From assembly GCA_963575745.1 (NCBI GenBank), contig CAUYUJ010014333.1:220001-284000 (forward strand): a DNA stretch of 64,000 nucleotides, read 5' to 3'. The notes below the pieces were generated by a model. That model had not been told where the DNA came from and ran no database searches. It saw nothing but the letters and a program-made list of their open reading frames with translations. This document shows, piece by piece, positions 3,483-63,010 of this stretch (position 1 is its first letter; the number at the start of each line of letters is the position of its first letter). Source of the stretch: Prorocentrum cordatum (lineage: Eukaryota; Sar; Dinophyceae; Prorocentrales; Prorocentraceae). A program made the translations under genes and the position numbers.

Positions 3483-3534
<52 letters not shown>

Positions 3535-23560: not shown

Positions 23561-23564
23561 CGAG

Positions 23565-25022: not shown

Positions 25023-27180
25023 ATAACCATTGATTTAACCAGTTTTAGACATTACGTGGATTGCGTGCTGCGGCGGCGGCGGCGGCGGAAGCGGCGGCGG
25101 CGGCGGCGGATTGGCCCCCAGCAGCTGCCCATCCAAAGACGACTGCTGAATATGCTAAGGCTCGGGCCAGACTCGGGTGCTACATATGTGTTGGGAGGGC
25201 GGGCGGGAGTGAGCGAGACGGCTTGCAGGGAGTCTTGACCCCTCTCCCTACCTCCTTCCCCTGAATCTGGACGGGCGGTGCCGCGACCCACTGGAGCGTC
25301 CAAAACGGCCTCGGCGAGGAAGACAAAATCCGCCGACCCTGTCGGCGTGTGTGAGGGGCTTGTCCGTTCAAGTCATCATCTCAGTCATTCGTTGGTCGTC
25401 GTCTCTGTCGCCCCCATTCCCTGCATCCCCCCTTTCCCTGGGCTCGTCGAAGCTCCTCTTTCCCAGGGACCTCCTCAGCGCGCCAGTCAAAACGAAAATC
25501 AACAACGTCGCAATTGAGTCGAAGGGAAGCCCCTTCCCTTCGATCCCTCCCCTGCCGGAGGGGGGGGTCTAAAGGGGGGGGGGTCAGACGCCCAGGGGGG
25601 GGGGGTCAGATGCGACGCCCCCCCTGGGAGTCACGGAACCCCAAAAAAAAACCCAAGACGGGCCAAGAATGCCCCGAGAGGCCCCAGAGACAGCCCAAGA
25701 CGCCGAACGATCTGTCCAAGACGCCTTGACGGAGCACACGGGGGGCCGAGAGCGGCAAGGGCCACGCATCCCTGCAATGTGAGCAAGCCTTCTGCGCGTC
25801 GGAAGCAGCCAGTGCGGGTGGCGGCGGAACGGGCGAGTAGCGACGATCGAACAGCAGTTCGCGCCGTGGGACAGGCACGTCGTAAGCAGACTGAAGGCAG
25901 TCAGCCGCTCGTCGACACCAGTGAAATGGCCAGCTTGCATGCAGGCGCTCGACGGACGGCAAACCGGATCGCCAAAACCGGCAGGGCGACGAAGGAGTCG
26001 GATCCCGCCCGGAGAGCAGCGGGCAAGCCGAAGAGAGAGGGCCCAAGGGCGCTCTTTTGTGCCGACCAGCGGCGCGTCTGGACCAGGGGGCAGCTCGCCG
26101 TGGCGGCAAATCGCGGCAGCGGGAGGGGGAACGGCCACCCTTCTGGGCCGAGGCGGCGGCGGTCCAGTTGGGAAAAGCAGGAGCAAAGAAACAGTGCGGC
26201 AGGGAGCGCGCCACCGAGGCCACGGCATCGAAGAGGAACACCGTGCAGTATTAGGCGCGAGCGCGAAGCTGCAGTAGCCACAGGGGGGGCGCGGACTGCG
26301 CTGGTAGGGGTGCCCTGAAAAGGGCAGCGGAGAGGCGGGGAGGGTGACGGGGGGGGCCCTCGACCGTCGGTGGCGCGACGGGCCCCCAGCGAGAGGGGGG
26401 ATGGCCGCGCCCAAGCGTGCACAGCCGATGGCGGGCCCCCTGCGGGCCCCAGGGGGAACAGGAAACACCTCGAGCAGAGGTGGAGCCTTGTGGGAAGGGG
26501 CGGCAACCACCCCACGGTGAGGCTGAAGTGTTTGTGAGGCGAGGACAAGCAGTGTGAGCAAACAGCAAGCCCAGGGGGGATTGCACGGCGGGGCTTCAGC
26601 GTTGCTGGATGGCGACCTGGAGCACTTGGCGCGGCACGCCTGACTAACGGGGGGCGCCCATAGGAACCATGCCCAGGGAGGGGAGCAGTGCTGGAGGCCG
26701 CGGTGCTGAACGAACCTGACGCCGTGAGCAAGGCCGAGGCCGAAGACAGCGACGTGCCGTTGGAGCAGCGGCGCCTCTGGTTGCGCCCGTGCTCGAGCAG
26801 GTTGTGCAGCACGGGCCTGTTTTGGCCGCTGGTGTAGTGCGTGCTGTCGGCGAGCTGCACGTCTGTGGCGCAGAACGTGGTACAGTATGACGACACACCG
26901 TGCGTGTAGCAATGGGCGCAGCCACCGACGTGCTGCGGTTGAACCCGCGAGCGGCCGCCAAGCACGCCGCGGTGAGGGATGTGCCAACGCTCGAAGCCGC
27001 GGTGTGGGGCGAGCAGGGTGGCCTTCAACGCCCTCGGGCGTTGGCCCCGCTGACCGCGTCGAGAGCGAACTGAGGGCGTAGCCGCTGGAGCGGCCTGAAC
27101 GACTTGCCATGAGCCTGGACGGCCAGGAACGATGCATCCGTCAATGTTGCCCACCCTCCAGGGGCGGCTGCTGCAACTGC
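25023..27180. other. GC-rich sequence, no gene recognised
   Basis: Contains a CGG tract (25070-25112), G-runs near 25560-25610 and long overlapping open frames on both strands typical of high-GC DNA. None carries a motif that I can defend. Confidence 0.4.
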
Positions 27181-31454: not shown

Positions 31455-32335
31455 CGAAACCTGATAAATCACATGGTGTTCGAATACTGTCCTCGCTCAG
31501 GCAGGGCCTCTCTGGAGGGGCGGGAGGGGCGGTGGGAGGAGCACGGATAAATCATATGGTATGCGGATGCTGTCCTCGCTCAGGCGGGGCCTCCCTGGAC
31601 AGGTGGGACGTAACCGGATCAATCACATGGTATCCGAATACTGTCCTCGCTCAGGCGGGGCCTCCCTGGAGGGGTGGGAAGGGCTGTGGGAGAGGCACGA
31701 AACCTGATAAATAACATGGTATGCGAATGCCCTCCTCGCTCAGGCGGGGCTTTCGTGGTGAGGTGGGAGGGGCACGTTTCCTGATAAATCACATGGTATC
31801 CGAATACTGTCCTCGCTCAGGCGGGGCCTCCCTGGACGGGTGGGAGGGGCACGTAACCTAAGAATTCGCATGGTATCCGAATACTGTCCTCGCTCAGGCG
31901 GGGCCTCCCTGGACGGTTGGGAGGGGCCCGTAACCTGATCAATCATATGGTATCCGAATGCTGTCCTCGCTCAGGCGGGGCCTCCCTGGACGGTTGGGAG
32001 GGGCACGTAACCTGATCAATCACATGGTATCCGAATACTGTCCTCGCTCAGGCGGGGCCTCCCTGGGCGGGTGGGAGGGGCACGTATCCTGATCAATCAC
32101 ATGGTATCCGAATACTGTCCTCGCTCAGGCGGGGCCTCCCTGGACGGGTGGGAGGGGCACGTAACCTGATCAATCACATGGTATCCGAATGTTGTCCTCG
32201 CTCAGGCGGGGGCTCCCTGGAGGGGTGGGAAGGGCGGTGGGAGGGGCACGAAACTTGAAAAATCATGCGGTATTCGAATACACTCCTCGCTCAGGCGGGG
32301 TCTACCTGGAGGGTGGGAGGGGTACAACATCATAC
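31455..32335 (+). repeat. 77-bp tandem repeat, about 11 copies
   Basis: Unit: CCTGATCAATCACATGGTAT, then CCGAATACTGTCCTCGCTC, then AGGCGGGGCCTCCCTGGA, then a CGGGTGGGAGGGGCACGTAA-type end. Anchors at 32088 and 32165 give 77 bp. The central copies are nearly identical; the flanking ones are diverged. Confidence 0.9.
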
Positions 32336-33160: not shown

Positions 33161-36100
33161 CTACCGCGGAGGCGCGCACGCACACTGGCCGGCGCAGGCC
33201 TCGTTGACGATCTCGTACGACAGCTGCACCGGCTGCCCGTTGCTCAGGATCCAGTCGACACGGTTCCGGCACGAGTCGGAACCACCGTACATCATGTTCC
33301 CGCTGTACTCGCACTGCGCGTCGCACTCGCCTGTGGGGCTCGGCGACGGCGCCTGGCATGAGCACTGCCCGGTGCACTCCTCGTTGACCTGGCTCGTGGC
33401 CGCCGCCGCACTCTTGCCGCCGTGCTCGACCAGCCAGCTGATGCGACCGCGGCACGAATGCGAGCCACCATTGTAGTTGCAAGGCGCGTCGCAGCCTCCA
33501 CCCGACGTAGGTGGCACCATGGGCACCAGCGTAGTGCCCGAAGTCGGTGCTGGCGTAGATGCGGCCGGAAGTGCGCACGCACACTGGCCGGCGCAAGCCT
33601 CGTTGACGATCTCGTACGACAGCTGCACCGGCTGCCCGTTGCTCAGGATCCAGTCGACACGGTTCCGGCACGAGTCGGAACCACCGTACATCATGTTACC
33701 GCTGTACTCGCACTGCGCGTCGCACTCGCCTGTGGGGCTCGGCGAAGTCGGAGCTGGCGTAGATGTCGCGGAAGGTGCTGCTGTGGGCGCTGGCGTGATG
33801 CCCGAAGTCGGTGCTGGCGTAGATGCGGCGGAGGGCTCTGGCGCCTGGCAAGAGCACTGCCCGCTGCACTCCTCGTTGACCTGGCTCGTGGCCGCCGCCG
33901 CACTCTTGCCACCGTGCTCGACCAGCCAGCTGATGCGACCGCGGCACGAATGCGAGCCACCATTGTAGTTGCAAGGCGCGTCGCACCCCCCTTCTGGCAA
34001 TGTGGGCTCCACAGCGCCGTGCTGCACCGGAACGTACTGGCGCCGGCGTCGTCGGTGGGCCCGCTCCAGAGTGGTAGCCTCAGCCTGCCCAGCCAACCAA
34101 CGGAATTTCTGCCCGCAGTCTCCCAAGGCTGCCCCCGTCTCGGGCCCTGTCTGGCCGCTGGCAAAGAAGCGCCGGTCTGAGTCCGCGGCGGCTATGCAGG
34201 AGACTTGGCCGCGGTCGGTGACCAGGGTGAGGGTCACGGCCTCGGCGGCGTTGCCCAAGCTCTGCGACGCATGGGGGTCTGAGAACTCGACGATGATGTC
34301 GCCAGGCTGGCCAGCGTCTGGCAGCCACCTAAGACCTTCCACAGTGTAGCTGGCCCCAGCAACCACAGGGGCCGCATAGCTGCCCTGATTGTTCCACGTG
34401 CGGCTGGGGTCGTGGAAGGGGGGGTTCCACCAGAGGCTGCCAACGTTCATGCCGAATGTAGGCTCAGAGTCGTCACGACTGACACCTTCATAGCCAGGAC
34501 CGCGAATGGTGATGCGCCCGAAATTGGGACCGAATATGTTCAAGCGGCGAACCGGAGTGGTCTTCGCGCAGCCAAAACCTCCACCCCACTTGCCGAGGGG
34601 GCCCTGGCATCCAGGCACGAGCGCGAAGCCGTTCAGGTGCGGGCTGACAATCGCTCCGTAGCCATCCAAAGACTCGTCGGCCGCCACCCACAGGATCCGG
34701 ACCGGATCGCCGCCGCTGCTGCCGAAGTTGATCACCTGCGCGCCACTGTCCCTGACCCAGCCGTACATGTGCGTCGTGGAGTCCAGGCCCACCAGGTGGT
34801 TCTGCACGTTGCAGGTCATGCCCTGGAGGGGGCCGCCCAGGTCGGGGCTGCCGAAGCAGTGCTGGGGGGAGTGGAGCTGCGCCCGTCCAGCCAGGGTCAC
34901 GCCCTCCATGGTGAAGGTGAACGCCCCCCCGGGAAGCCGAGCGGTGGTGTCCGCGAAGACGGAGTCGCGGATGTGAACGGCGTTCGGGTCGGCGAAGTTC
35001 TTCGACCGCTTCCAGTACATGCCCGTGTTGCAATCGACCGCTCTGAAGCGCAGGTACATGATGTCGCCGGCCGTGTACTGGCCAACGAAATCGTTGTGGT
35101 AGTCCAGGCAGTCCTCCACCACGGACGCTGGGACCACCCCGTTGTCCCTGCCATCGGGCGTGAGTTCCTGCCAGCACCTCTGCATGTCGATGACGTAGCC
35201 GTTCTCGTCACGGGGGCCCACGTTCCGCGGGAACTGGTTGTCTGGGTAGATGCCGAAGTAGGAGTTGTCGTGATTGACGTTCCCGCGCATGATCCCGTAT
35301 GGAAGGTGCCTCGGGCAGACCTTCCCATGTGCTTCCCCCTCGCCAAGGTGGTGGAGGCCGCCCGGTGTGAAGAGACCGTGCTGATGACCGACAATGTGGT
35401 TGCCGATAACGTCGTTAGTCACACCAACCATGTAGATGCCCACGCCCTCACCTGCGTTCGCGCCCTTTACGATGCAGTAAGGACCGCTGGGGCCCCCGCT
35501 GCGCTTTGAATCGTCCCAGTAAGGGCATATGATTGTGTTGTGGCTGATCGTGTTGTTCATCTCGTTCCCGTCCTCCGTGTAGATCCCGACCCCTCTGTTC
35601 ATCCAGAGGACGTTGGAGTCGACAGTGGTCCGGTGGGTCCCATGAATGGTGATGCCCGACTGGAAGGACTCGACAATGGCGTTGCCCTGGAAGATGCACT
35701 CTGGGCACTGCCCCAGCAAGTGGAAGTGCAGACAGTAGCGGCCCTTGATGCCGTTCTGGCCGCAGTACTCCACCCTCGCGTGACGCACCACGCCCACACT
35801 GCCTGGCCCCATCATCACGTGCAGTCCTTGGCGCGTGGCGAGGAAGTCCTGGTGGTCCCCGGTGATGAGCACGGAGCGCTCCATGTTCACCACCTCGGCG
35901 GCGAGCTCGAACTGCTGCCCCTCGACGTCCTTCATGCCGCCCATCCGCGCGGCCTGGAGCGGTGGCGACACGCGGAGCCCAGAGGGCAGCAGCTCCACGA
36001 TGGTGTGCTCGCTGGAGTCGCTCTGGCGGGCCCGCGTGGTGGCCACGCCGACGCGGTCCCCGACGCGCCAGCCCATGTCTCCCGGGTCGTGCTTCAGGGC

Positions 36101-36706
36101 CAGCTGCGAGGAGCCCTGGGCGGCACCGCTGGAGAGCAGGGACATCGTGCGCGCCAGGGGGCGGCCGTGTATCTCGATGCGGGAGCTGCCCCTGCTGCCG
36201 ACGAAGCGGCTGCCCATGGGTCCGGAGAGCGACCCGCACTGCTTGATGTAGATGGTGGCCCTCAGCTCCATCGGCGCGTCCGCGGTGCCTATCTCGAGCA
36301 GGCCTCCGTCCTCCACCATGACGTGGCAGGCGCGCAGTTCCAGCCCGTCCTTCGCCGTATCCCACCTCAGCTCCCCTCGAATGGTGAGCGACTCGACGTC
36401 GATGCTGGCGTCCAGCACCCACGCGGCGCCGGCGGGCACCTCGCACCGCGACCCGGAGGCGCACGCCGCCGATGCCCGGAGGCTGCGATGCGCGAGCTGC
36501 GCCCCGAGCTGGACCAGCTGCACGCCGGGCGGGCTGCCAGGCACGCGGTTGGCCCACGTCCGCCCCGCGCCGGCGCTGTGGTTCGCCAGCCTGGCTCCGA
36601 GGCTGCACAGGCGGTCGGCGCCTGGGCCCCCGGCGTGGGGGCCTGCGGCGCCGAGGGCTCCCACGGCGGAGGCGGCGGCAGCGAGGGCCGCCGCGAGGGC
36701 AAGCAT
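33161..36706 (-). CDS. Secreted G8-domain / beta-helix protein with Cys-rich repeats
   Basis: 1181 codons, uninterrupted by introns. Residues 1-20 form an Ala/Leu-rich signal peptide. A G8 domain spans about 88-250, with its hallmark GELRWDTAKDGLELRA (111-126), LLEIGTADAPMELRATIYI and WRVGDRVGVATT. A parallel beta-helix follows (about 265-660) with the CEMIP/PKHD1L1-like YCLHFHLLG (324-332) and many N-x-I/V turns. After an RRRRR stretch (885-889) come four Cys-rich modules in the order A-B-A-B (908-953, 994-1044, 1072-1117, 1126-1176) joined by Pro/Thr-rich linkers. Each module keeps C-x3-C, C-x3-R-(I/V)-x-W and VNE-x-C-x-G-x-C-x-C. G8/beta-helix proteins act at the cell surface or outside the cell, some on glycans; the substrate here is unknown. 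The chosen ATG is the first after the SL relic, 97 nt upstream, and is followed by the signal peptide. No transmembrane helix is seen downstream. The lack of introns plus the SL relic indicates a retrogene. Confidence 0.9.
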   Translation of the reverse strand: MLALAAALAAAASAVGALGAAGPHAGGPGADRLCSLGARLANHSAGAGRTWANRVPGSPPGVQLVQLGAQLAHRSLRASAACASGSRCEVPAGAAWVLDASIDVESLTIRGELRWDTAKDGLELRACHVMVEDGGLLEIGTADAPMELRATIYIKQCGSLSGPMGSRFVGSRGSSRIEIHGRPLARTMSLLSSGAAQGSSQLALKHDPGDMGWRVGDRVGVATTRARQSDSSEHTIVELLPSGLRVSPPLQAARMGGMKDVEGQQFELAAEVVNMERSVLITGDHQDFLATRQGLHVMMGPGSVGVVRHARVEYCGQNGIKGRYCLHFHLLGQCPECIFQGNAIVESFQSGITIHGTHRTTVDSNVLWMNRGVGIYTEDGNEMNNTISHNTIICPYWDDSKRSGGPSGPYCIVKGANAGEGVGIYMVGVTNDVIGNHIVGHQHGLFTPGGLHHLGEGEAHGKVCPRHLPYGIMRGNVNHDNSYFGIYPDNQFPRNVGPRDENGYVIDMQRCWQELTPDGRDNGVVPASVVEDCLDYHNDFVGQYTAGDIMYLRFRAVDCNTGMYWKRSKNFADPNAVHIRDSVFADTTARLPGGAFTFTMEGVTLAGRAQLHSPQHCFGSPDLGGPLQGMTCNVQNHLVGLDSTTHMYGWVRDSGAQVINFGSSGGDPVRILWVAADESLDGYGAIVSPHLNGFALVPGCQGPLGKWGGGFGCAKTTPVRRLNIFGPNFGRITIRGPGYEGVSRDDSEPTFGMNVGSLWWNPPFHDPSRTWNNQGSYAAPVVAGASYTVEGLRWLPDAGQPGDIIVEFSDPHASQSLGNAAEAVTLTLVTDRGQVSCIAAADSDRRFFASGQTGPETGAALGDCGQKFRWLAGQAEATTLERAHRRRRRQYVPVQHGAVEPTLPEGGCDAPCNYNGGSHSCRGRISWLVEHGGKSAAAATSQVNEECSGQCSCQAPEPSAASTPAPTSGITPAPTAAPSATSTPAPTSPSPTGECDAQCEYSGNMMYGGSDSCRNRVDWILSNGQPVQLSYEIVNEACAGQCACALPAASTPAPTSGTTLVPMVPPTSGGGCDAPCNYNGGSHSCRGRISWLVEHGGKSAAAATSQVNEECTGQCSCQAPSPSPTGECDAQCEYSGNMMYGGSDSCRNRVDWILSNGQPVQLSYEIVNEACAGQCACAPPR
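33165..33990 (-). repeat. Internal A-B duplication within the G8 gene
   Basis: The DNA for modules A2+B2 (about 33170-33493) is almost identical to that for A1+B1 (about 33575-33985), including long exact stretches. The linker between A and B differs in length, so the two halves have diverged mainly in the Pro/Thr linker. This points to a recent tandem duplication or ongoing gene conversion inside the coding region. Confidence 0.85.
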
Positions 36707-36802
36707 GGGCCCTCGCTGGGGTTGGGGTCGGACCGCGCGCTCTTGGCACGGGGCGGGCGCGGCGCCCCTGGGGCAGATCCCGGCTCTCTGGACCAGACAC
36801 GG

Positions 36803-36822
36803 CTTGAGCCAAAGGCTACGGA
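36803..36822 (-). other. Relic spliced leader (SL) upstream of the G8 gene
   Basis: The minus strand reads TCCGTAGCC directly followed by TTTGGCTCAAG. This is the 22-nt dinoflagellate SL with only a 2-nt deletion in its central AT-rich run; the other 20 positions match. It lies 97 nt before the ATG of the G8 gene, on the same strand, with no other ATG between. SL is added to mRNA by trans-splicing, so finding it at this place in DNA indicates that the gene was copied from a mature mRNA. The repeat word ending CCCCACCAGCC that precedes it also occurs at 56.45 kb and stops matching exactly where the SL begins, which marks the insertion edge. Confidence 0.85.
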
Positions 36823-37339
36823 GGCTGGTGGGGATACGCGAAGCGTCAAGAATTCACGTACAAGACGAAGCCAGGGCGAGGATAAAACGGGGTGAGAACA
36901 GATCGAGGATCTCTGAGATCCGGCGGATCTGGAGGATGTCTCGGGCGCAGCGGTCTCTTCAGAGCGTTCTGGAACGTTCCGAGAGTTTTCTGGAACGGTC
37001 TTGCACGGATTATCCACCCCCTAGCACCGTCCGAGCGTACCCTGGCCCCGCCCTAGCCCCGTCCTAGCGTAAGCGGATGCTCATGGGGAGCGTGGTTCCC
37101 AGACACCCGACGTCATGGTTTTCTCATGACGTCGACCCCCAGAGGACTCGACTCATTTCCCCGGAACCAATTTTTCATCCTGAGTCGTTGTTTGACAGTT
37201 CCGAGGCCCAGTAGGGGCCCCCGGAGGACGAAATTATCCCAGAGCGACCCTACCTAGGAGTTGGAGCCCCGAAGAAAGCAAGATTAGTAGTAACGGTAAA
37301 CGCCGACCTCCTCCTTCTCCTCATCGTCGCAATGTAGCA

Positions 37340-43420: not shown

Positions 43421-46420
43421 GTCTCTGCTTCGGCACACCCCTCACACGTTCCGTGGCCCCGCAAGGAGCTTCACCGGAGGTCACAGTGGTGCAGTTCGCA
43501 TTTGAGCGTCGCGCCCGATTCGGCACACCCCTCACACGTTTCGTGGCCCCGTAGGGAGCTGCACCGAAGGTCCCAGTGGTGCAGCTCGCATGTGGGCGTC
43601 GCGCCCGGTTCGGTACACCCCTAACACGTTTCTCGGCCCCATAGGGAGCTCCACCGAAGCTTTCCGCGGTGCAGTTCGCATGTGGGTGTCACGCCCGTTC
43701 GGCACACCCCTCACGCGTTTCGTGGCCCCATAGGCCATAAGGAGCTCCACCGAAGGTCTCCGCGGTGCAGTTCGCGTGTGGGCGTCACGCCAATTTCGGC
43801 ACACCCCTCACACGTTTCGTGGCCCCGTACGGAACTCCACCAAAGGTCCCAGTGGTACAATTCGCATGTGGGCGCCACGACCGTTTCGGCACACCCCTCA
43901 TACGTTTCGTGGCCCCCATAGGGAGCTCCACCGAAGGTCTCAGTGGTGCAGTTCGCATGTGGGCGTCACGCCCTTTCGGCACACCCCTCACACGTTTCGT
44001 GGCCCCATAGGACATAGGGAGCTCCGCCGAAGGTCCCAGTGGCGCAAATCGCATGTGGGCGTCATGCCCGTTTCGGCGCACCCCTCACACGTTCCGTGGC
44101 CTGGGTAGCTCGACCGAAGGTCCCATTGGTGCAGTTCGCGTGTGGGCGTCGCGCCCGGTTCGGCACACCCCTCACAAGTTTGGCGGCCCCATAGGTAGCT
44201 CCACCGAAGGTCCCAGTGGCGCAGTTCGCATGTGGGCGTCGCGCCCGTTTCAGCTCACCCCTCATACGTTTCGCGGCAAGGTCCCAGTGGGAGGGTTCAC
44301 ATGCACCTGCCCACCTCCCCAAATCGGCATGCCCCTCACACGTGTTGTGGCGTCATAGGGAGTTCCGCCGACGACGATCCTCACAACTGCGGCACTCACA
44401 ACTGCATCTGGTTGGGTCCTTCGCCAGGCTAATTTGTTTTCCAGCCATCCTGTGGTGTTGGGTCCTCGTTTTGATGAGCCTGTGCTCGCGACTCCCTCAC
44501 TCAATCACTCCGCATCCTCCCCCCTCCTCCCATCCCTGCCTCTGCCCTCCGCACCAGTCAGCCATTGCGGAACACCCGATCACACGCTTCGCGGCCCCAT
44601 ACGGAGCTCCGCCGAAGGCCCCAGTGGCAGGGTTGATATGCGTCCGCGAGACCCATGTCGGCACACCCCTCACAAGTTTCGTGGCCCCATAGGGAGCGCC
44701 GCAGAAGGCCCAAGTTGCAGGGTTTACACGGCCCCGCGCGATTCAGATCGGCACACCTCGCGCACGTTTCGTGGCCCCATAGGCCATAGGGAGCTCCGCC
44801 GAAGGTCCCAGTGGCGCAATTCGCATGTGGGCGCCATGCCCGTTTCGGCGCACCCCTCACACGTTCCGCGGCCTGGGTAGCTCGACCGAAGGTCCCAGTG
44901 GTGCAGTTCGCATGTGGGCGTCGCGCCCGGTTCGGTACACCCCTAACACGTTTCTCGGCCCCATAGGGAGCTCCACCGAAGCTTTCCGCGGTGCAGTTCG
45001 CATGTGGGTGTCACGCCCGTTCGGCACACCCCTCACGCGTTTCGTGGCCCCATAGGCCATAAGGAGCTCCACCGAAGGTCTCCGCGGTGCAGTTCGCGTG
45101 TGGGCGTCACGCCAATTTCGGCACACCCCTCACACGTTTCGTGGCCCCGTACGGAACTCCACCAAAGGTCCCAGTGGTACAATTCGCATGTGGGCGCCAC
45201 GACCGTTTCGGCACACCCCTCATACGTTTCGTGGCCCCCATAGGGAGCTCCACCGAAGGTCTCAGTGGTGCAATTCGCATGTGGGCGTCACGCCCTTTCG
45301 GCACACCCCTCACAAGTTTCGTGGCCCCATAGGGAGCGCCGCAGAAGGCCCAAGTTGCAGGGTTTACACGGCCCCGCGCGATTCAGATCGGCACACCTCG
45401 CGCACGTTTCGTGGCCCCAGAGGCCATAGGGAGCTCCGCCGAAGGTCCCAGTGGCGCAATTCGCATGTGGGCGTCATGCCCGTTTCGGCGCACCCCTCAC
45501 ACGTTCCGTGGCCTGGGTAGCTCGACCGAAGGTCCCATTGGTGCAGTTCGCATGTGGGCGTCGCGCCCGGTTCGGCACACCCCTCACAAGTTTGGTGGCC
45601 CCATAGGTAGCTCCACCGAAGGTCCCAGTGGCGCAGTTCGCATGTGGGCGTCGCGCCCGTTTCAGCTCACCCCTCATACGTTTCGCGGCAAGGTCCCAGT
45701 GGGAGGGTTCACATGCACCTGCCCACCTCCCCAAATCGGCATGCCCCTCACACGTGTTGTGGCGTCATAGGGAGTTCCGCCGACGACGATCCTCACAACT
45801 GCGGCACTCACAACTGCATCTGGTTGGGTCCTTCGCCAGGCTAATTTGTTTGCCAGCCATCCTGTGGTGTTGGGTCCTCGTTTTGATGAGCCTGTGCTCG
45901 CGACTCCCTCACTCAATCACTCCGCATGCTCCCCCTCCTCCCATCCCTGCCTCTGCCCTCCGCACCAGTCAGCCATTGCGGAACACCCGATCACACGCTT
46001 CGCGGCCCCATAAGGAGCTCCGCCGAAGGCCCCAGTGACAGGGTTGATATGCGTCCGCGAGACCCATGTCGGCACACTCCTCACAAGTTTCGTGGCCCCA
46101 TAGGGAGCGCCGCAGAAGGCCCAAGTTGCAGGGTTTACACGGCCCCGCGCGATTCAGATCGGCACACCTCGCGCACGTTTCGCGGCCCCATAGGGAGTTC
46201 CACCGAAGGCCCCAGAGGCGGCGTTCGCGTGCGTTCGTGGCCCCACAGGGAACCCCACCGAAGGCCCCAATCGCTGCATTAGCATGCGCTCACTGCGCGT
46301 ATTCCAGTACATTCCTGACACGTTTCGTGGCCCTATATGAACCTCATCCGAAGACGATACTCGAAACTGCATTACTCACAATCCATGTGGCTGGGTCCTT
46401 CGCCAAGCTAATTTTTACGA
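43420..46420 (+). repeat. 90-bp satellite array with higher-order structure
   Basis: About 28 copies of a 90-bp unit: TTCGGCACACCCCTCACACG, TTTCGTGGCCCCATAGGGAG, CTCCACCGAAGGTCCCAGTG, GTGCAGTTCGCATGTGGGCG, TCACGCCCG. Anchors at 43519, 43609 and 43698 give 90 and 89 bp. Some copies carry a 10-11 bp insertion (CCATAGGCCATAAGG). Three sub-arrays each end in the same terminal motif (CTGCATCTGGTTGGGTCC, then TTCGCCAGGCTAATTT) at 44402, 45814 and about 46383. The spacer CCATCCTGTGGTGTTGGGTC begins at 43323, 44447 and 45857. Peptide-like frames across the array repeat and rotate; none is a gene. Confidence 0.95.
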
Positions 46421-52370: not shown

Positions 52371-55180
52371 GCAACGTAGGCGCAGTCTTCCTCGCAGGGA
52401 CCAGGCGAAAGCAGACAGAAAGACAGCATTCAAATGTTTCACATCCACATCAGTGGGAGATCAGTTTTGCGTGGACCGGAGCACCTAGCATAACAAAAGC
52501 TATGGCGTATCGGTCTACCTTCACCATCGGCGGTTTCCTCGAAATTGCACACGACGTATTTACAGTCCTCCCCAAACGCTGGCGGGACGAACAGGGGCCG
52601 TGCGTCTCAAATACAGCTCCTCGGACATTATCGGTGTTGCGGTCTACTTTTCAATGGCATCATCATGTCGTGCGGGCATATCCTCGTATCGAAAGTTTGT
52701 GGAAGCGGTGACCTCGTTGGTGCAATCGCTAATCAACAGCGTTGGCAACAGGTGCAACCCCCATCATGGGTATTGACCTGAACGACGGTCTAGGCTACTC
52801 CCCCACGAGATTTACGAGAGCGAGATTGCCACAGGATAGCAGGACGACGATGAGGCGCACAACGCAGTGGTGGATTATGCGGACGTGGACGTGGAGGGGC
52901 TCGCGGCTCAGCTGTGGCACCAGATGCTACACGACACGCGCACGATGGCCTGCACGATCCACATTCCGAGGCTCGACAGGGCACAACTCACGGATGACTG
53001 CGCGCACATACCGAGCGGCCTGAGGCCACACATTACATGCTGCAAGATCCCGTCGGGGGTTGGCCGCCGTCTCCGGCTCACCAACACGTCAAACGACCGC
53101 GACCACAGACCGGCATACGCCGAGTGCAGGAGCTACTTCGAGGCGGAAGCCTAGGCTCGACAGTCGTGGGACTTTGACGGTATCGTGCGGATAATGAGTG
53201 GAGGCACCTCTTACCAAGGGGAGGTGGAGAAGATTCACAGCGCCAGGCTGCAGATTTCAGGCGAAGATTGAATCAGACTGTGCACGCGACCCATGACGGA
53301 CGATGTGGAACTCATCCTCGGTCGCACTCAGACAGGTTCTGCTTGATGCGTTCCAGCGTAAGTCGGCAGTGGAACAGGAGAGACCCGAGCTCGAGCCCAA
53401 GAGATCACAACTTTTGGATCGACGCAAGGTCCCTCGGGGTCAGCGCATTAGCAGAGGCAACACGGACAGGGAGGTGGAGCGTGAACTCTCGGGAATTACC
53501 TTTCGCAAGCGCACTCTATCAAGACAGATCACCAAGGGCATCAACAAAACGCCAGTGGGGGGACTCAACGCAGCTTGGGCAGATCACGATCACAATGCAA
53601 CTCAGCGTCTCACTCGCAGACTGGCTCGTCGAGGTCTTGGCCCACGCCAGCGGAAGCACGTTACGGCTAGGCGGAGAACTGCGAGCCACAGGACACTGCC
53701 GACTTCCTGAAGCTTCCCGCGCGCCGGGGGAGACTTGGAGCGGTGGAGCGCGACCTGCAACGTGAACTATCCAAACGTTTCGACAGTGTCAATCTTGGCG
53801 ACGAGGCTCATCGGACGGACCAGCAGAGGTATGGCGCAAGGAAGTTCGGCGACTCCCAGCAGGCGGAGGACCTCCGAGGCATCATTCGAGAAATGAGGCG
53901 GGCCCCGAAGTGGAGAGCCATCCCAGCTTGGAGCATGCCCCCCGAACCCTGGCTCATCTCACTAGACACTGAACAATGGCTGAAAGTTCAGCGCGGGGGA
54001 GTTGGCGAGGACCCCACACCATGGACCGCAATGGCCTTCGACGCGATGATGGTTGACATCATCGCCACTTGACGACGAGCATCTTCTCGCTGCGTGGGCC
54101 TGGACAAAGGCAACTGCAAAACGGGACCCCTGGGCCAACGCTGGATTCACATGTTCTGTCCGCTCGGTGGAACAGCGGACGACGACACAACGAGACTGGT
54201 CCATACTATTATGATGGGTTTGCTCGGCGGCGCAGGAGGGAGGACGCCATCACGGTGCACGACGGTTCATCGTGGAGGCTCCAGAAGATGGGCATCTCCC
54301 ACACAATCGTGAACGAGGACGCCACGAACGCCTTCGCCAGTGCAGACAGAGATATCAACCTCTCATCACTCGAGTCCCTCTACCTCTCTGAAGACGCCAG
54401 GCTACAACACCACAGGACCTACAGACGGCCCTGCATCTCGGGGACCCCCACGGGCTGCATGTTGCTACGGCCTACCTCAGGCGAGCCCATGGGGCATCCC
54501 AAATCCAGCTAAGGAGGTGCCCCGTACTTCTACCAGGTGGGCTTGGAGGTCTTTCTGAGATGGAGGCCGCAGACTAGCTCACGCGAGTACACAGAAGTCT
54601 CGGAGGTGGATGGCGCTTGCACGGACGCAGGGATCACGGTCTACGCGGACGATGTCACGATGAATGTTAAAACTGGGTGGTGCCCTGGTCACGTCACTTC
54701 ACGGAGGGAGGAAAAGCAGTCCATCTCACGTCCCTGTCGACAAGGAGCAGCAGTCAGCTCAGCACGGCGCTGGGTGAGGTCGGATTCCCCCTGAAAGCGG
54801 ACGGGAGACCCAGAGCCCACGCCTCGTTGGCGCAGGCAGCGTGGCACAGAGGAGACGCATCTAATCGGGCAGCCCCAAGTTGGCAGGACGGCACAACAGA
54901 TGCATGCGCATCATAGGAGGGTGGCTCACGTCGCAAGGCTCGCTACATATCGGGAAGGGAAGACTGCTCCAGGCGGGCCGATCGGGTCTCGGGGCCACCT
55001 CTAACGTTCTGGTCCACCCGGCGTCCCGTGCGATTAAACGTGTGGCGATTCTCTCGTTTGTCAAGGGGGCGCTCCTGTCGGGCACGAAGGCAAGATACCC
55101 GACCACCTACACGACCGAAGACAACAAAATCATGATGCGAGCGATGCGACGGGGATTGGGGGTGAAGGGCACGTAGGATC
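52370..55180 (+). pseudogene. LINE retrotransposon, frameshifted: endonuclease and reverse transcriptase
   Basis: Plus-strand remains of an APE-type LINE polyprotein in at least five frames. Endonuclease pieces: VGAVFLAGTRRKQ (about 52376) and MGIDLNDGLG (52760-52790), the D-x-N-D-x-x-G motif of the APE fold. RT pieces: EDATNAFAS (about 54315-54340; RT motif A, D followed by N-A-F), GAPYFYQVGLEVFLRWRP (about 54516-54560) and ITVYADDVTMN with the catalytic YADD at 54642-54653. A thumb-like segment with GGWLTSQGSLHIGKGRLLQA and LSFVKGALLSGTKA spans 54880-55170. RNase H and the C-terminal tail are absent, since the match stops near 55180. Many frameshifts separate the pieces, so it cannot make a polyprotein. 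Catalytic residues are still present, which implies decay mainly by indels. Confidence 0.8.
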
Positions 55181-55640
55181 ACGATAAGGTGACTAGGATT
55201 AAGTCGGGCCTGTCCCCCTACAGGCCGATTCTGGACGAAAATCCCACCAGCCCTTTGGGCGTGAGTGGTTTAGCGAGCTCTCTCTGTCCTCAACCCCCCT
55301 TCTTCCCCTTCGGGGAGGGGTTTACCCCTCCCCCTACCCCCTCCCCCTGGGCCTGGAGAGGGGGCCCGGCGGGTCGTCAGAGGGGGTAAATTTCGACTCC
55401 TGGGAGGGCTAAAAAACGACGACTCTCACAAGGATTCTGGCCCCGACGGGGGGACGGAGATAAGTCCCTCTCCTCTTCTGTGAAGCCAAAAACATTGATT
55501 TTACTATGGTTTTGGCCCCATTTTGGCTTTCTGAGGGGGCAGCGCTCCTCTTCCTTCATAGCAAAATCATTGATTTTACGAAGGTTTTGGGCTCATTTTG
55601 TCCTTCTCAGGAGGCAGCGCTCACTTGCGCTTCTGAGGAG
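55180..55640 (+). repeat. Unassigned flank ending in an 85-bp duplication
   Basis: Short C/T-rich flank, then two copies of AAACATTGATTTTAC, TTTTGG, CATTTTGGCTTTCT and GGCAGCGCTC (about 55487-55545 and 55565-55622). Confidence 0.6.
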
Positions 55641-56265: not shown

Positions 56266-56809
56266 GGAGCGTTTTCTCTCCCTCCTCTTCCGCCTCGTCC
56301 TTCTCCCGCTCCCCCCACAAGGAGGATGTACAAGGAGGCGGGAGGAAGGAGGAACACGGGAGATATGCGGGAGCAAACGGACACACGCCTGAAAAACACT
56401 ATTGTCGGCACGCTTCGCAAGAGTTGCGGTTGTGAGATGGGCTGGTGGGGATACGCGAAGCGTAAAGAATTTAAAATAGTCAAATTATCCCAACAAAGCA
56501 ACCTAACATCGATATGTAGAAGCATAGCTGGAGGCATGCAGCAGCAGTAACAGTCACAGTAGTAGTAGCAATAAGAGCAGGAGAGATGAAACAGTGGTAA
56601 CAGTGAAGTAGTAGTTGTAGTTGGCGGGAGTGAACGAGTGAAGTGTAGTAGTAGTGGTGGGTGTAGTGATAACAGCGAAGTGAAATATAGTTGGGGTGGG
56701 TGGATGGCAGTAGTAGTAACAGTGAAGTACGGCGGATGTCTTGGATAGTAGAACGGTGGTAGGGGAAGTTAGCCCCCGTAGTAACGGTACCAGAAGAAGT
56801 AATAGTAGA

Positions 56810-57190
56810 ATGTATGTCGAAACGAGACACTGCTATCAATGCACGGAGCTTGAATGGATGTATTTGCAAACAAGACACTGCTATCAACGCACGGAGCTTG
56901 AATGGATATGTGGTCAAACAAGACACTGCGATCAACGCACGAAGCTTGAATGGATGTATGTCCAAACGAGACACTGCTATCAACGCACGTAGCTTGAATG
57001 GATGTATGTCCAGAAGAGACACTGCTATGAACGCAAGGAGCTTGAATGGATGTATGTCCAGAGGAGACACTGCTATCAACGCACGTAGCTTGAATGGATG
57101 TACGTCCAAACGAGACACTGCTATCAACGCACGGAGCTTCAATGGATGTAGGTGCAAACGATACACTGCTATCAACGGATTGAGTCTCAA
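56810..57190 (+). repeat. 48-bp minisatellite, about 8 copies
   Basis: Unit: GACACTGCTATCAACGCACG, GAGCTTGAATGGATGTATG, TCCAAACGA. The period of 48 is a multiple of three, so a 16-residue peptide repeats in register (RDTAINARSLNGCMSK on plus). Minus-strand frames also repeat in 16-residue register. I do not treat any of these as a gene without transcript evidence. Confidence 0.9.
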
Positions 57191-57424
57191 ACGATTTATT
57201 GGTATCAATGGTTTTAGCACCAAAACAGGGGCTCGAAGCTCTTGTGTTTGCATCTCTCGTCACGCTCTTCCGAAGGCGCTGGTATGTACCATCGTTTGCA
57301 CAGCAGCACCAGTGCACATAGTATGCAGACGGAGGAGCCCCGTAACTCACTACGCACGGGTACAGCACTAGACGGAGGAGCACCGCATCTCACTACGCCC
57401 CGTATCTCACCACGCCCCGTAGAG

Positions 57425-58297
57425 CTAGGCTCGTGCAGGCCAGCCTAGCTCTTGTCGGGCTTTCGCGCAAGCGATCTTCGTCGCGGCAATCTTGTCCGCG
57501 AAGAGCTCCGCGAAGGCCTTGGCGATCTGTTCCGGGGGGCCGGATTCGATGATGCTTCGGTCAGGCAAGCCGTGGCTCAAGAGCTGGCCGAAGCTCCTGG
57601 GCCGCGACAGGCTGACGTAGTAGGCCAGACAAATGGACTCTTTCTTGAGTCCTGGCGGAAACGTCCAGTGCACGATGAAGCCTGGGTCCGCCGTCTTGCC
57701 CTGCACGCCGTGCAGAGTGCCCTGCTTCCTGGGCAGCACGGTCAACTGCGCCCTGGATACCGAGATGGCTGGGCCACCTGCCGCTGGTTTGAACTTCCAG
57801 GGGCGGGCCTGCGCAGTGATCGCGAGCGCTCCGCGCAGGTCGGGGCCAGCAGGCTGAGAAGCACTGCCAGCTGTCACTGGCGCGGTCGTCAAGAAGAGTT
57901 CATCGCTGTTGTCCATATTGACATAGACGGCCTTTGGCATGTAGTGGAGTAGTACAATACCATCCGAGACAATGGACGGACGGCCTTCCACTGGAGGCTC
58001 CAGAGCGTGCATCTCTATGCCTACCACCCTGCCTGGCGCGCCACGGACATACTGAGGTGGCAAGACGGACTCCGTCAGGATGACCTCCATGCCGATGAAG
58101 AGCGGCAGCAGTCCCGGCATTTTTGCGGTAGCGCCGATGTTGGGCATCGCGCGCATCTCGTCGAAGTTAGGTTTCGCAAGGCGCGCAGCTGGTCTGTCGA
58201 TTGCCGGCACGTAGAAGAGCAGCTGGCCAGCATCGTGCGCATCAAGCTTGGCCTGCGCATGCATGGCGTAAGAGACGAGGAGCGGCGTGCGGCCGCA
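57425..58297 (-). pseudogene. Pif1-like helicase, C-terminal fragment
   Basis: About 290 codons of an SF1B Pif1-like helicase C-terminus. Recognisable parts: PGLLPLFIGMEVILTESVLP (the entry to the last RecA-like domain, where bound metals and promoter-like loops are absent), an AYVNMDN-like strand region, the late motif LHGVQGKTADPGFIVHW (equivalent to the T-h-x-x-Q-G-x-T step) and YYVSLSRPRSFGQLL (motif VI, with S-R). The Walker A and B motifs of the N-terminal RecA domain are missing; upstream the frame runs into tandem repeats of 58380 onward. Such helicase pieces are frequent in dinoflagellate genomes. The stop at 57425 follows a natural-looking helical tail (KIACAKARQELGW). It lies inside composite element B0, antisense to it. 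Either captured cargo or a decayed gene of the element. Confidence 0.75.
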
Positions 58298-58379
58298 GGC
58301 GTGTGTCGGTCTTCCTCCGCAGGCTGAGAAGCACCGCGAGAAGCCGAGGCTGCGGACCGGCCTCGCGGCCAGGGGAGGG

Positions 58380-59040
58380 CCATTGCAATGTAGACCGCGG
58401 AAGAACGGCCGGTTCCGTCGGAAAGATTGCAATGTGGGAGGCACGTCCTGAACCAAAGACGGCTGTCAAGACAATGTAGACCGCGGAGGAACGGCCGGTT
58501 CCGTCGGAAAGATTGCAATGTCGGAGGCACGTCCTGAACCAAAGACGGCTGTCAAGAATATGGCCCGGGAATGGAGTTCTGGGTGGCGTACAGCTGGCTC
58601 CGGGCATTCAGAATGTGGCCCGGGAATGGAGTTCTGGGAGGTCGAAGAGCACGAAGTGTGTGACTGTTTGCGAGAAGCGAGGTTCCGCTCCGGGCATTCA
58701 GAATGTGGCCCGGGAATGGAGTTCTGGGAGGTCGAAAAGCACGAAGTGTGTGACCGGTTCCGTCGGAAAGATTGCAATGTCGGAGGCACGTCCTGAACCA
58801 AAGACGGCTGTCAAGAATATGGCCCGGGAATGGAGTTCTGGGTGGCGTACAGCTGGCTCCGGGCATTCAGAATGTGGCCCGGGAATGGAGTTCTGGGAGG
58901 TCGAAGAGCACGAAGTGTGTGACTGTTTGCGAAAAGCGAGGTTCCGCTCCGGGCATTCAGAATGTGGCCCGGGAATGGAGTTCTGGGAGGTCGAAAAGCA
59001 CGAAGTGTGTGACTGTATGCGAAAAACGAGGTTCCGCGGA
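58380..59040 (+). repeat. Direct duplications of 73-bp-type repeats in B0
   Basis: A block of about 260 bp (CCGGTTCCGTCGGAAAGATT, then CGTCCTGAACCAAAGACGGC, then two GGGAATGGAGTTCTGGGAGG units) occurs at about 58493-58753 and again from 58755. A shorter copy of its first part lies at 58407-58480. Units here are longer than the standard 73 bp because of a GTGACTGTTTGCGA-type insertion. Confidence 0.85.
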
Positions 59041-59196
59041 TCCCCCCCGGAAATCCCCAACGGCCCCCCCAACGGCCCCCCAACGGCTCCCCAACGGCTG
59101 CCCAGACCCCCCTGTGGAGTAATGTGCTGCTCTCTTTTTAGACTATTAGAAACCTATCAGTCTTCGATGTTAGGTAACAATACCCTAAAATATTCA

Positions 59197-60231
59197 AATT
59201 ATCCCTGCAAAGCAACCTAACAGCGATGTGTAAAAGCATATCTGAAAGCATTCCCGTTAAGATTCAGATGAAAATCCAGTTGTAGAATTCTGCTGCTCTC
59301 GCAGTCGTAGTCGCATTCGCGATGACAGTCGCAGCGGCAACGGCAGTCGCAGTCACAGCCTCAGCCTCAGCCTGCCTCAGCTTCAGCCTGCCTCAGCCTC
59401 AGCCTGCCTCAGCCTCAGCCTCAGCCTGCTTCAGCCTCAGCCTCAGTCTGCCTTCAGCCTCGGCCTCAGCCTCAGCCTGCCTCAGCCTCAGCCTGCATCA
59501 GCCTCAGCCTCAGCCTCAGCCTGCCTCAGCATCAGCCTGCTTCAGCCTCAGCCTCAGCCTGCCTCAGCCTCAGCCTCAGTCTGCTTCAGCCTCAGCCTCA
59601 GTCTGCCTTCAGCCTCGGCCTCAGCCTCAGCCTGCCTCAGCCTCAGCCTGCCTCGGCCGCAGCATCAGCCTGCCTCAGCATTCAAAATGTGGCCCAGGAA
59701 TGGAGTTCTGGGAACTAGAAGAACACGAAGTGGCCTACAGTTGGCCCGGGCATTCAAAATCATGCCCAGGAATGGAGTTCTGGGAACTTGAAGAGCACGA
59801 AGTGGCCTACAGTTGGCTCGGGCCATTCAAAATGTGGCCCGGGAATGGAGTTCTGGGAAGTAGAAGAGCACGAAGTGGCCTACAGTTGGCTCCGGGCATC
59901 CAAAATGTGGCCCGGGAATGGAGTTCTGGGAAATCGAAGAGCACGAAGTGGCCTACAGTTGGCTCCGGGCATCCAAAATGTGGCCCGGGAATGGCGTTCT
60001 GGGAGGTCAAGGAGCACCAAGTGTATGACTGTTGCATCCGGTTATTCAGAATGTGGCCTGGGAATGGGGTTCTGAGAGGTCGACGAGCACGAAGTGTGTG
60101 ACTGTTGGTGAAAAACGAGCCCGGCACAGGCCCGGCCGGCAACTCCCAACGCCTGCCCGGACCCCCCTGTGGAGTGATCTGTGAGCTCTTTTGAGTCAAC
60201 TAGAAACCTATCAGTCTTCGCTGTTAGGTAA
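59197..60231 (+). mobile_element. Composite element copy B
   Basis: Left end TTATCCCTGCAAAGCA then ACCTAACAGCGA (59215-59226); right end TCGCTGTTAGGT (60218-60229) then AA. Inside: the subterminal region with GTTGTAGAATTCTGCTG, a CAGCCT hexamer block (about 59358-59685), five to six 73-bp units (59690-60110) and the common tail ACCCCCCTGTGGAGTGATCT. This is the shortest copy. It abuts copy C directly. Confidence 0.6.
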
Positions 60232-60233
60232 AA

Positions 60234-62508
60234 ATTATCCCGGCAAAGCAACCTAACAGCGATGTGTAGGAGCATATCTGGAAGCATTCCCCTTAAGATT
60301 CAGATAAGAATCCTGTTGTAGAATTCTGCTGTTCTCGCAGTCGTGGTCGCATTCGCGATGGCAGTCGCAGTGGCAACAGCAGTCGCAGTCACAGCCTCAG
60401 CCTCAGCCTGCCTCAGCCTCAGCCTCAGCCTGCCTCAGCCTCAGCCTGCCTCAGCCTCGCCCTCAGCCTGCTTCAGCCTCAACATCAGTCTGCCTTCAGC
60501 CTCGGCCTCAGCCTGCCTCAGCCTCACCTCAGCCTGCATCAGCCTCAGCCTGCCTCAGCCTCGCCCTCAGCCTGCTTCAGCCTCAACATCAGTCTGCCTT
60601 CAGCCTCGGCCTCAGCCTGCCTCAGCCTCAGCCTGCATCAGCCTCAGCCTCAGCCTCAGCCTGCCTCAGCATCAGCCTGCCTCAGCCTCAGCCTCAGCCT
60701 GCCTCTGCCTCAGCCTCAGCCTGCTTCAGCCTCAGCCTCAGTCTGCCGTCGGCCTCGGCCTCAGCCTCAGCCTGCCTCAGCCTCAGCCTGCATCAGCCTC
60801 AGCCTCAGCCACAGCCTGCCTCAGCATCAGCCTGCCTCAGCCTCAGCCTCAGCCTCAGCCTGCCTCAGCCTCAGCCTCAGCCTGCTTCAGCCTCAGCCTG
60901 AGTTTGCCTGCAGCCTCGGCCTCAGCCTCAGCCTGCCTCAGCCTCAGCCTGCCTCAGCCTCAGCCTCAGCCTCAGCCTGCCTCAGCCTCAGCCTGCCTCA
61001 GCCTCAGCCTCAGCCTGCTTCAGCCTCAGCCTCAGTCTGCCTTCAGCCTCGGCCTCAGCCTCAGCCTGCCTCAGCCTCAGCCTGCATCAGCCTCAGCCTC
61101 AGCCTCAGCCTGCAGCCTCAGCCTCAGCCTCAGCCTCAGCCTCAGCCTCAGCATCAGCCTGCCTCAGCCTCAGCCTCAGCCTGCCTCAGCCTCAGCCTCA
61201 GCCTGCTTCAGCCTCAGCCTCAGTCTGCCTTCAGCCTCGGCCTCAGCCTCAGCCTGCCTCAGCCTCAGCCTGCATCAGCCTCAGCCTCAGCCTCAGCCTG
61301 CCTCAGCATCAGCCTGCCTCAGCCTCAGCCTCAGCCTGCCTCAGCCTCAGCCTCAGCCTGCTTCAGCCTCAGCCTCAGTCTGCCTCGGCCTCAGCCTCAG
61401 CCTCAGCCTCAGCCTGCCTCAGCCTCAGCCTCAGCCTCAGCATCAGCCTCAGCCTCAGCCTCAGCCTGCCTCAGCCTCAGCCTCAGCCTGCAGCCTCAGC
61501 CTCAGCCTCAGCCTCAGCCTCAGCCTCAGCCTCAGCCTCAGCAGCCTCAGCCTCAGCCTCAGCCTGCCTCAGCCTCAGCCTCAGCCTCAGCCTCAGCCTC
61601 AGCCTCAGCCTCAGCCTCAGCCTCAGCCTCAGCCTCAGCCTCAGCCTCAGCCTCAGCCTCAGCCTCAGCCTGCAGCCAGCCTGCCTCAGCCTCAGCCTCA
61701 GCCTGCCTCAGCCTCAGCCTCAGCCTGCTTCAGCCTCAGCCTCAGTCTGCCTTCAGCCTCGGCCTCAGCCTCAGCCTGCCTCAGCCTCAGCAGCATCAGC
61801 CTGCCTCAGCATTCAAAATGTGGCCCGGGAATGGAGTTCTGGGAACTCGAAGAACACGAAGTGGCCTACAGTTGGCTCCGGGCATTCAAAATCATGCCCA
61901 GGAATGGAGTTCTGGGAACTCGAAGAGCACGAAGTGGCCTACAGTTGGCTCCGGGCATCCAAAATGTGGCCCGGGAATGGAGTTCTGGGAACTCGAAGAG
62001 CACGAAGTGGCCTACAGTTGGCTCCGGGCATCCAAAATGTGGCCCGGGAATGGAGTTCTGGGAAGTCGAAGAGCACGAAGTGGCCTACAGTTGGCTCCGG
62101 GCATCAAAATGTGGCCCGGGAATGGAGTTCTGGGAAGTCGAAGAGCACGAAGTGGCCTACAGTTGGCTCCGGGCATTCAAAATGTGGCCCGGGAATGGAG
62201 TTCTGGGGTGTCAAGTACGAGGAATTGTATGACTGTTGCGTCCGGCTATTCCGAATGTGGCCCGGGAATGGCGTTCTGGGAGGTCAAGGAGCACCAAGTG
62301 TGTGACTGTTGCATCCGGTTATTCAGAATGTGGCCTGGGAATGGGGTTCTGAGAGGTCGACGAGCACGAAGTGTGTGACTGTTGGTGAAAAACGAGCCCG
62401 GCACAGGCCCGGCCGGCAACTCCCAACGCCTGCCCGGACCCCCCTGTGGAGTGATCTGTGATCTCTTTTGAGTCAACTAGAAACCTATCAGTCTTCGCTG
62501 TTAGGTAA
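60234..62508 (+). mobile_element. Composite element copy C
   Basis: Left end TTATCCCGGCAAAGCA then ACCTAACAGCGA (60251-60262); right end TCGCTGTTAGGT (62495-62506) then AA. The CAGCCT hexamer block is 1.4 kb (about 60390-61805) and is followed by eight 73-bp units (61812-62380). The tail is nearly identical to that of copy B. A 629-codon frame of Ser/Ala/Leu/Gln/Pro spans the element but is explained by the stop-free hexamer and minisatellite. Confidence 0.6.
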
Positions 62509-62539: not shown

Positions 62540-63010
62540 TTGAATGTTCCCCATGTTGAGGGACAGGCCCGACTTAAGACTAAGAGGTGGAGCTCGAAGC
62601 GGATGTGGGCGTACTGGCAGATTCTACCGATTGCTGGGGAACTACGTCTCGGGCGGGTACGCTGGTACCAATCCTGGATCAAGTTTCCGAGTGCACACCG
62701 TCAAGTCAGGGCGTGTATACTAGGTACCATGGGACCCTGGCACATAATGAACGAGGATTGGACGAACCGCCCCCAGGCCAACCGGTGGGCAAAACAGCTA
62801 CTCCAGGACCTCCAGTTCGCTCGGGAAAGAAGTGAGGAGTTCAACATGTTTGTCCCCGACCCTCTCCCTCCCCAAGCTCCTACTCGAGTGATTACGACAA
62901 GTGGGCCGACATCAACTTTAGCAGTTCCAGGGCCAACTACTTCTCAATCCAGATCTCACTATGCCCTCAGAAGTCACCCAGCCCCGAACTTCAAGAGCAC
63001 GATACGTTGA
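62540..63010 (+). pseudogene. LINE linker fragment
   Basis: A 156-codon plus-strand frame. Its first 100 residues resemble the segment between RT thumb and RNase H of dinoflagellate LINEs: RLGRVRWYQSWIKFPSAHRQ followed by VRACILGTM, then NRPQANRWAKQLLQDLQFAR. The rest is Pro/Thr/Ser-rich. It starts about 30 bp after the right end of composite copy C. No RT or RNase H motif is present, so this is an isolated fragment. Confidence 0.55.

Follow-up and report, generated by a model that had tools for sequence, protein, structure and literature searches.

What are the four repeat-filled units that share the same two ends in a 64,000-nt stretch of contig CAUYUJ010014333.1 from the dinoflagellate Prorocentrum cordatum (hereafter the window; ~60% G+C), and what moves them? 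The original prediction saw in them a possible non-autonomous mobile element carrying satellite DNA. By inspecting the sequence and searching the window for the pattern of the ends, we found all four units with both common ends and nearly at the predicted positions, namely unit A (56485–59177, minus strand), unit B (59199–60231, minus strand), unit C (60235–62508, minus strand, head to tail with unit B), and the isolated unit D (22995–25026, plus strand). We also searched the genome (4.13 Gb in 21,875 contigs), in which the window is part of contig C13484. Our analysis indicates that the units are very probably non-autonomous rolling-circle transposons of the Helitron superfamily, with a design like that of Helitron2 and HINE elements, which descend from an element of ~21 kb that most likely also mobilises them in trans. 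The dispersal of the family, its fixed ends and its larger coding relative bear out the mobile, non-autonomous character first proposed.

Read in element sense, the layout begins with a 5'-TT-ACCTAACAGCGA hairpin, continues with ~120 bp, a 73-bp satellite array and a microsatellite block (hexamer, GAG or other), and closes with a subterminal region and TCGCTGTTAGGT-TGCTTTGC.GGGATAA-3'. Specifically, units B, C, and D start with TT-ACCTAACAGCGAAGACTGATAGGT, and all four units end with (TCG.TGTTAGGT)-TGCTTTG..GGGATAA. The inverted repeats are asymmetric terminal inverted repeats (ATIRs): the 5'-ATIR lies 0–2 bp from the element end, and its inverted 3' copy lies 16 bp inside the GGGATAA end. The expectation of identical ends held insofar as both ends occur in all four units; it failed for the inverted repeat of unit A, which reads ACCTAACATCGA at both ends. 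The same T for G occurs in the large elements described below, at both ends where seen (ACCTAACATCGA / TCGATGTTAGGT). A hairpin can form from the first 24 bases, with ACCTAACAG facing CTGATAGGT at one mismatch (-3.9 kcal/mol, DNA parameters), and the ATCGA-type hairpins of unit A and the large elements are weaker when folded (-1.9 and -3.1 kcal/mol). The canonical Helitron1 signature (5'-TC, 3'-CTRR, A/T target) is not matched, since the ends read TTACC... and ...GATAA and the target is a T-tract.

The family is dispersed throughout the genome. The 12-bp core of the repeat occurs 19,560 times (9,829 + 9,731 on the two strands), compared with 169 times (79 + 90) for the same letters written backwards, which rules out chance. 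Among the first 100 of these places, which are not a random sample, 28 convergent pairs lie 724–2,629 bp apart (median 1,542), and neighbours within 6 kb also include 3 divergent and 4 same-strand pairs. These 100 places amount to 72 units, from which we extrapolate about 14,000 units in the genome, with the same reservation as to sampling. From this listing we took 40 loci, of which 27 surround convergent pairs and 13 surround other places. Together with the window they supplied 37 full elements, 33 of them in the 40 loci and 4 in the window, from a total of 40 five-prime and 49 three-prime ends; the ends outside the full elements are either unpaired within the stretch taken or too diverged for the pattern. 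The full elements measure 752–2,691 bp (median 1,558). They resemble each other more closely over the 3' 110 bp (median pairwise identity 0.93) than over the 5' 110 bp (0.76), and the 5'- and 3'-ATIRs are identical in 32 of the 37, a count biased by the choice of loci through the exact core.

Three units of the window lie head to tail, and 527 such joints, with 0–12 bases between a 3' and a 5' end, occur in the genome (control 0), as would be expected of a macrosatellite, that is, a unit existing only in head-to-tail arrays. This explanation, whose chance we put at next to nil, is refuted by the ratio of 527 joints to 19,560 cores and by the finding that 56 of the 72 units have no other within 10 kb. 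Head-to-tail neighbours differ from each other, with best-stretch identities of 97.6% (locus L044), 87% (L034) and 89% (units B and C); they may be joined copies, or may result from repeated insertion into the T-tract at the 3' end of an older copy. Among the first 100 joints, only T separates the two ends in 74, and the exact end-to-end TT is the commonest spacing (38). In the Fusarium FoHeli elements, which likewise have ATIRs and a T-containing target, joined ends were read as a sign of circular intermediates (PMC5148889; here and below, published systems are described from the available passages of each source). FoHeli differs in that its 3' inverted repeat lies ~20–40 bp from the end, and no satellite blocks are described for it in those passages.

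The elements insert into T-tracts without target-site duplication (TSD). A T stands at position -2 in all 37 full elements and at -1 in 35, and T-rich runs also occur 3' of the element ends. At least three T precede 30 of the 40 five-prime ends and follow 26 of the 49 three-prime ends, against a background of TTT at ~1% of positions. Matches between the two flanks of the 37 elements were no commoner than in shuffled flank pairs; at locus L028 the flanks share five bases, not all T, which we take as chance. We then joined the flanks (60 + 60 bases) of four insertions, L029, L011, L022, and L032, and searched the genome with them, scoring the best 40 of 4,578 candidates (67 rows). The joined flanks of L029 found 32 uninterrupted paralogous sites across the joint, 30 at 80–85% and 2 at 77% identity, all belonging to a dispersed host repeat. 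As demonstrated by the alignment of ten of these empty sites, the element sits in a T-tract, no bases are duplicated, and the empty sites are mostly 1–2 bases shorter near the joint than the joined flanks, which fits an element that starts with TT and inserts without TSD; the exact base of the joint stays unfixed because the host repeats are only 80–85% alike. The joined flanks of L032 found their own halves and the halves of a second filled copy in contig C16182. A parallel search among the 40 loci taken gave nothing usable in the at least 81 matches listed. Separately, a motif near CCTGTAGGGGGACAGGCCCGACTTA is dispersed through the sequence examined (11 occurrences in 224 kb when up to 4 mismatches are allowed), at window positions 55200–55224 (minus strand) and 62552–62576 and in L022, L023, L029, L032, L039, and L043; it borders the host repeat that took L029 and possibly marks one end of a different mobile element.

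The coding relative was found through unit A, which lacks the hexamer block and contains 48-bp tandem repeats (56810–57177), a helicase remnant (57428–58279) and a repeat block with periods of 86 and 259 bp. The remnant covers residues 63–346 of the open frame 57428–58465 (minus strand) and corresponds to the C-terminal part of a Rep/PIF1-type gene. A protein search with the frame gave 164 homologues at E≤0.01 (120 listed). The fragment itself had no match in Pfam, NCBIfam or the PDB; among ten longer homologues scanned, nine carry PF05970 (E≤1) ahead of the part that matches, one of them above the cut-off and one only at 0.2, and a profile of 28 homologues reached AAA ATPases of the PDB at E ~0.01 and, weakly, PIF1 structures at 0.13–0.31. 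In the genome, 117 matches to the frame were scored out of 3,585 candidates, most of them ~90% identical and many within open frames of 1,917–1,923 codons. Recent activity of the coding copies is suggested by the many copies that score alike in this protein search, in which each copy is compared with the query rather than with the others. In the copy whose coding content we read (loci L079/L080), a frame of 1,917 aa is preceded by a frame with DUF6570 at 5.5e-10. Over its 3' 1,794 bp, L079 is 97.8% identical to unit A, with the terminus at the same base in both, the 48-bp repeats lie at the same place in both, and 18 of the 36 other small elements match L079 over short stretches up to the 3' terminus at E≤1e-10. 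Judged from these alignments, unit A is a deletion derivative of the large Rep/PIF1-helicase element. The final 28 bp of a second large copy (L081) differ in one base only, and two large copies are colinear upstream, with 83–87% identity where compared.

A search with the Rep part gave 42 homologues at E≤0.001 out of 7,999 scored. Four of them were scanned for domains: P0141 carries Helitron_like_N (PF14214) and PIF1 (PF05970), both above their cut-offs; P0145 carries DUF6570 and PIF1 above and Helitron_like_N below; P0121 has DUF6570 above and PIF1 just below, and P0134 has DUF6570 above and Helitron_like_N below. Taken together, the Rep/helicase homologues carry PF14214, PF05970, and PF20209. 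Motif 2 (ExQxRG..HxH) occurs in 32 of 41 relatives, motif 3 (YxxKYxxK) in 26 and a Walker A of the GGGGVGK type in 15. From these matches, the ~21-kb element is predicted to encode DUF6570, HUH-Rep and PIF1-helicase parts. Apart from this gene, the large copy has an upstream frame of 632 aa (L080, 2488–4383, minus strand); by eye it resembled an RPA gene, a reading dropped as nothing convincing matched. The genome also has canonical-looking Helitron Reps (151 Helitron_like_N matches from 1,615 candidates, in L050, L053–L056 and others), with the motif-2 pattern in 26 of 30 loci cut out and RGLPHxH in the 16 printed. In L061, a small-element 3' end (3350–3500) lies ~1.2 kb downstream of such a match.

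The length of the large element follows from its ends. The ATCGA-type 5' end occurs 255 + 231 times in the genome (control 0). We used the 30 of the 117 helicase matches that lie on contigs up to C6115, where the list of 5' ends stops: such an end lies upstream on the same strand within 26 kb of 8 of the 30, against 0.046 expected, and on the opposite strand of none. No 5' end was found within the 16.1 kb examined of the first large element; three other copies have theirs ~20 kb upstream of the helicase end (20,425–20,633 bp), and the remaining distances are 1.6, 5.0, 11.1, 14.4, and 22.2 kb. Both unit A ends, read in small stretches, bound the copies in contig C2859 (58845–79998, 21,154 bp) and contig C6113 (1471–22601, 21,131 bp), from which the 21-kb length is taken, and a third copy nearly carries both. 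In all three large copies whose ends were examined, the 5' end directly follows TTTTT. The larger family member anticipated in the original prediction is thereby at hand, and so are 19,560 cores with 28 convergent pairs in the first 100 places from the genome search that it proposed. These data also bear on two other explanations. A cut-and-paste transposon with 12-bp terminal inverted repeats, or a miniature inverted-repeat transposable element, would account for the 12-bp inverted repeats near both ends and for the TTA at both outermost ends, but is scarcely tenable: the repeats are asymmetric (0–2 bp from one end, 16 bp from the other), no TSD is seen, the related coding element is a Rep/helicase one with no match to a transposase family in the four L079/L080 frames scanned, and both the 3' identity of unit A with L079 and the two unit A ends on the 21-kb copies contradict it. 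Introners, intron-generating elements of the sort reported to be common in P. cordatum, come to mind because the introns of this species reportedly abound in elements bounded on both sides by inverted repeats (PMC10666404); the lack of TSD and the existence of a Helitron coding partner make this origin very improbable.

Tandem repeats of 72–73 bp, or of about two or three times that length (145–149, 217), occur in 35 of the 37 full elements, and in the other two the repeats read 112 and 259. Read by eye, the second block consists of the GCTGAG hexamer in 25 elements and of a GAG/AGG triplet in 6, and the remaining 6 have some other sequence there; hexamer blocks measure ~0.2 to 2.0 kb. The fixed order of hexamer block and 73-bp repeats noticed in three units recurs as described, the CAGCCT/GCTGAG block adjoining the 73-bp repeats in the same order in units B, C, and D. 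An exact 73-bp word occurs 31,145 times in the genome; the first 100 of these places form 38 clusters, none with more than six words, and an exact element core lies within 3 kb of 33 clusters and farther from the other 5. Every insertion does add a short array at a fresh site. The further proposal that the elements seed free, independent satellite arrays is unsupported, since the 73-bp repeat forms short clusters of which so many lie near a core.

The layout had been thought to be unlike any named family; on this point our comparison disagrees, as asymmetric ATIRs, a 5' hairpin, T-tract insertion without TSD and satellite blocks are all described (PMC3627910, PMC4067079, PMC7492417). Cg_HINE of the Pacific oyster (PMC7492417) is likewise non-autonomous, with subterminal inverted repeats of 11–12 bp, a short complementary repeat at the 5' end, a microsatellite and satellite-like repeats in fixed order, T-rich insertion without TSD, and empty sites. 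Cg_HINE has a short microsatellite on its 5' side and a palindrome at the 3' end; in the P. cordatum units the satellite is 5', the microsatellite block is 3' and up to ~2 kb long, and we found no such palindrome. Helitron2 elements of Chlamydomonas (Helitron-1N1_CRe and relatives, PMC3627910) share the ATIRs (8–15 bp there), of which the 5' one lies 0–2 bp from the terminus and takes part in a 5' hairpin, and insertion at T without TSD, there between TTTT and T/C. Their 3'-ATIR lies ~20–30 bp from the 3' end; here the distance is 16 bp, no hairpin stands behind it, and the content is satellite. DINE-1/HINE elements of Drosophila, mite and mosquito (PMC4067079) resemble the units as deletion derivatives of a large Rep/helicase element with tandem repeats and a TT target. 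The units might therefore be true HINEs, the non-autonomous partners of an endonuclease-encoding Helentron, as the shared subterminal inverted repeats, inner tandem repeats, T-rich target and lack of TSD of HINE, DINE-1 and Cg_HINE would suggest (PMC4067079, PMC7492417). We regard this as unlikely. The partner of DINE-1/HINE has an endonuclease domain (PMC4067079), and none was found in the 1,917-aa RepHel frame or in the three other L079/L080 frames scanned, with ~5.5 kb of the 21-kb element lying outside the scan; the residue after RG in motif 2 is F in 26 of the 32 relatives and S, as in Helentrons, in 6 (distant relatives and P0126), where the two reported signatures have S and L (PMC4067079); and no 3' palindrome was found in the one element folded. 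The reversed order, the longer blocks, the lack of a 3' palindrome, motif 2 and the 21-kb partner thus set the units apart from Helentrons and HINEs in the strict sense. A microsatellite and a satellite in fixed order are a known design (Cg_HINE); from sequence comparison, it is this branch of Helitron-like elements that looks unusual.

Several observations weigh against the assignment to Helitron-type transposons moved by the 21-kb element. Helitron2 and HINE elements are described with a 3' hairpin, and here none was found, the last 30 bp of unit C, the one element folded, reaching -0.1 kcal/mol. The RepHel protein of the L079 copy reaches Helitron_like_N only at E=0.0097, below the cut-off, and deviates from the HUH motif seen in its relatives. 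Mobilisation of the small elements in trans is most likely on the grounds of shared ends and the origin of unit A, yet the five large copies with a visible 3' repeat are of the ATCGA type and most small elements sampled are of the AGCGA type, and therefore the direct partner of most small elements may be another subfamily. The 73-bp and hexamer words tried are absent from the 21.5 kb of large-element stretches compared (L079–L081 and L092), which leaves the satellite blocks of the small elements without a source in those stretches. The empty sites, finally, come from one of the four insertions tested: among the best 40 of 4,578 candidates, the joined flanks of L011 and L022 had no match across the joint, and those of L032 gave six short matches (~43–51 bp) that reach only ~7–9 bases over it and were not counted. 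The comparison of flanks suggested at the outset thus produced empty sites for L029, none for the three others, and no TSD.

In the transposition of Helitrons as it is known, Rep nicks the DNA at one end, the strand that is displaced gets copied, and transfer is closed by a signal at the opposite end. By analogy, Rep would nick at the ends of the P. cordatum elements, a single strand would be peeled off and copied, and the 5'-ATIR, as a hairpin or paired with the 3'-ATIR, would mark the end of transfer; the internal satellite blocks would be carried along, their length changing by slippage or unequal exchange. Bao and Jurka proposed that pairing of the 5'- and 3'-ATIRs undoes the 5' hairpin and so marks the end point (PMC3627910), and the parts that their model requires are present here, save the 3' hairpin. 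A more speculative reading, which we consider rather doubtful, is that giant (21-kb) rolling-circle elements form a lineage of their own in dinoflagellates, marked by a distinct Rep signature and by the lack of a 3' hairpin, and that rolling-circle copying itself lengthens the satellite and microsatellite blocks in them; if so, transposition, rather than ordinary slippage, would make and spread the arrays. The assignment to Helitron-type rolling-circle transposons would link some of the repetitive DNA in a large dinoflagellate genome with one definite mechanism, and the system supplies a pair, a large coding element and small satellite carriers, that allows tests of how transfer ends without a 3' hairpin and of whether Helitron-type elements lengthen satellites. 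Helitrons are reported to be more abundant in symbiotic Symbiodinium (PMC9087856), and among the open-access papers listed in our literature searches we found no description of such a family in dinoflagellates.

Within the window, the parts of the four units are placed as follows. The 5' end of unit A (59152–59177, minus strand) consists of TT, the 5'-ATIR ACCTAACATCGA and the hairpin, its 5' repeat block (58386–59037) includes 73-bp-type units, and its 3' end (56485–56512) consists of the 3'-ATIR TCGATGTTAGGT (56501–56512) and the tail TGCTTTGTTGGGATAA. Unit B, on the same strand, has its 5'-ATIR and TT at 60218–60231, the 73-bp repeats at 59678–60096, the hexamer block (GCTGAG in element sense) at 59356–59679, and the 3'-ATIR with the GGGATAA tail at 59199–59226. 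The corresponding parts of unit C lie at 62495–62508, 61809–62373, 60392–61810 (a hexamer block of 1.4 kb) and 60235–60262. Unit D, on the plus strand, has its 5'-ATIR, preceded by TT, at 22995–23008, the 73-bp repeats at 23162–23562, the hexamer block at 23564–24606, a third block of the decamer AGGAATCCTT at 24603–24860, and the 3'-ATIR with the GGGATAA tail at 24999–25026.

Elsewhere in the window, ~90-bp repeat arrays at 43429–46212 and 8377–9050 appear by eye to be mutual reverse complements, and tandem repeats of 71–89 bp occupy 31544–32322, including a 77-bp unit in seven copies at 90%. By eye, 54000–55170 resembles a decayed reverse transcriptase; the frame 54057–54509 within it has no Pfam match. 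Additionally, an open frame of 1,230 aa at 33164–36853 (minus strand) carries G8 and CEMIP beta-helix domains.

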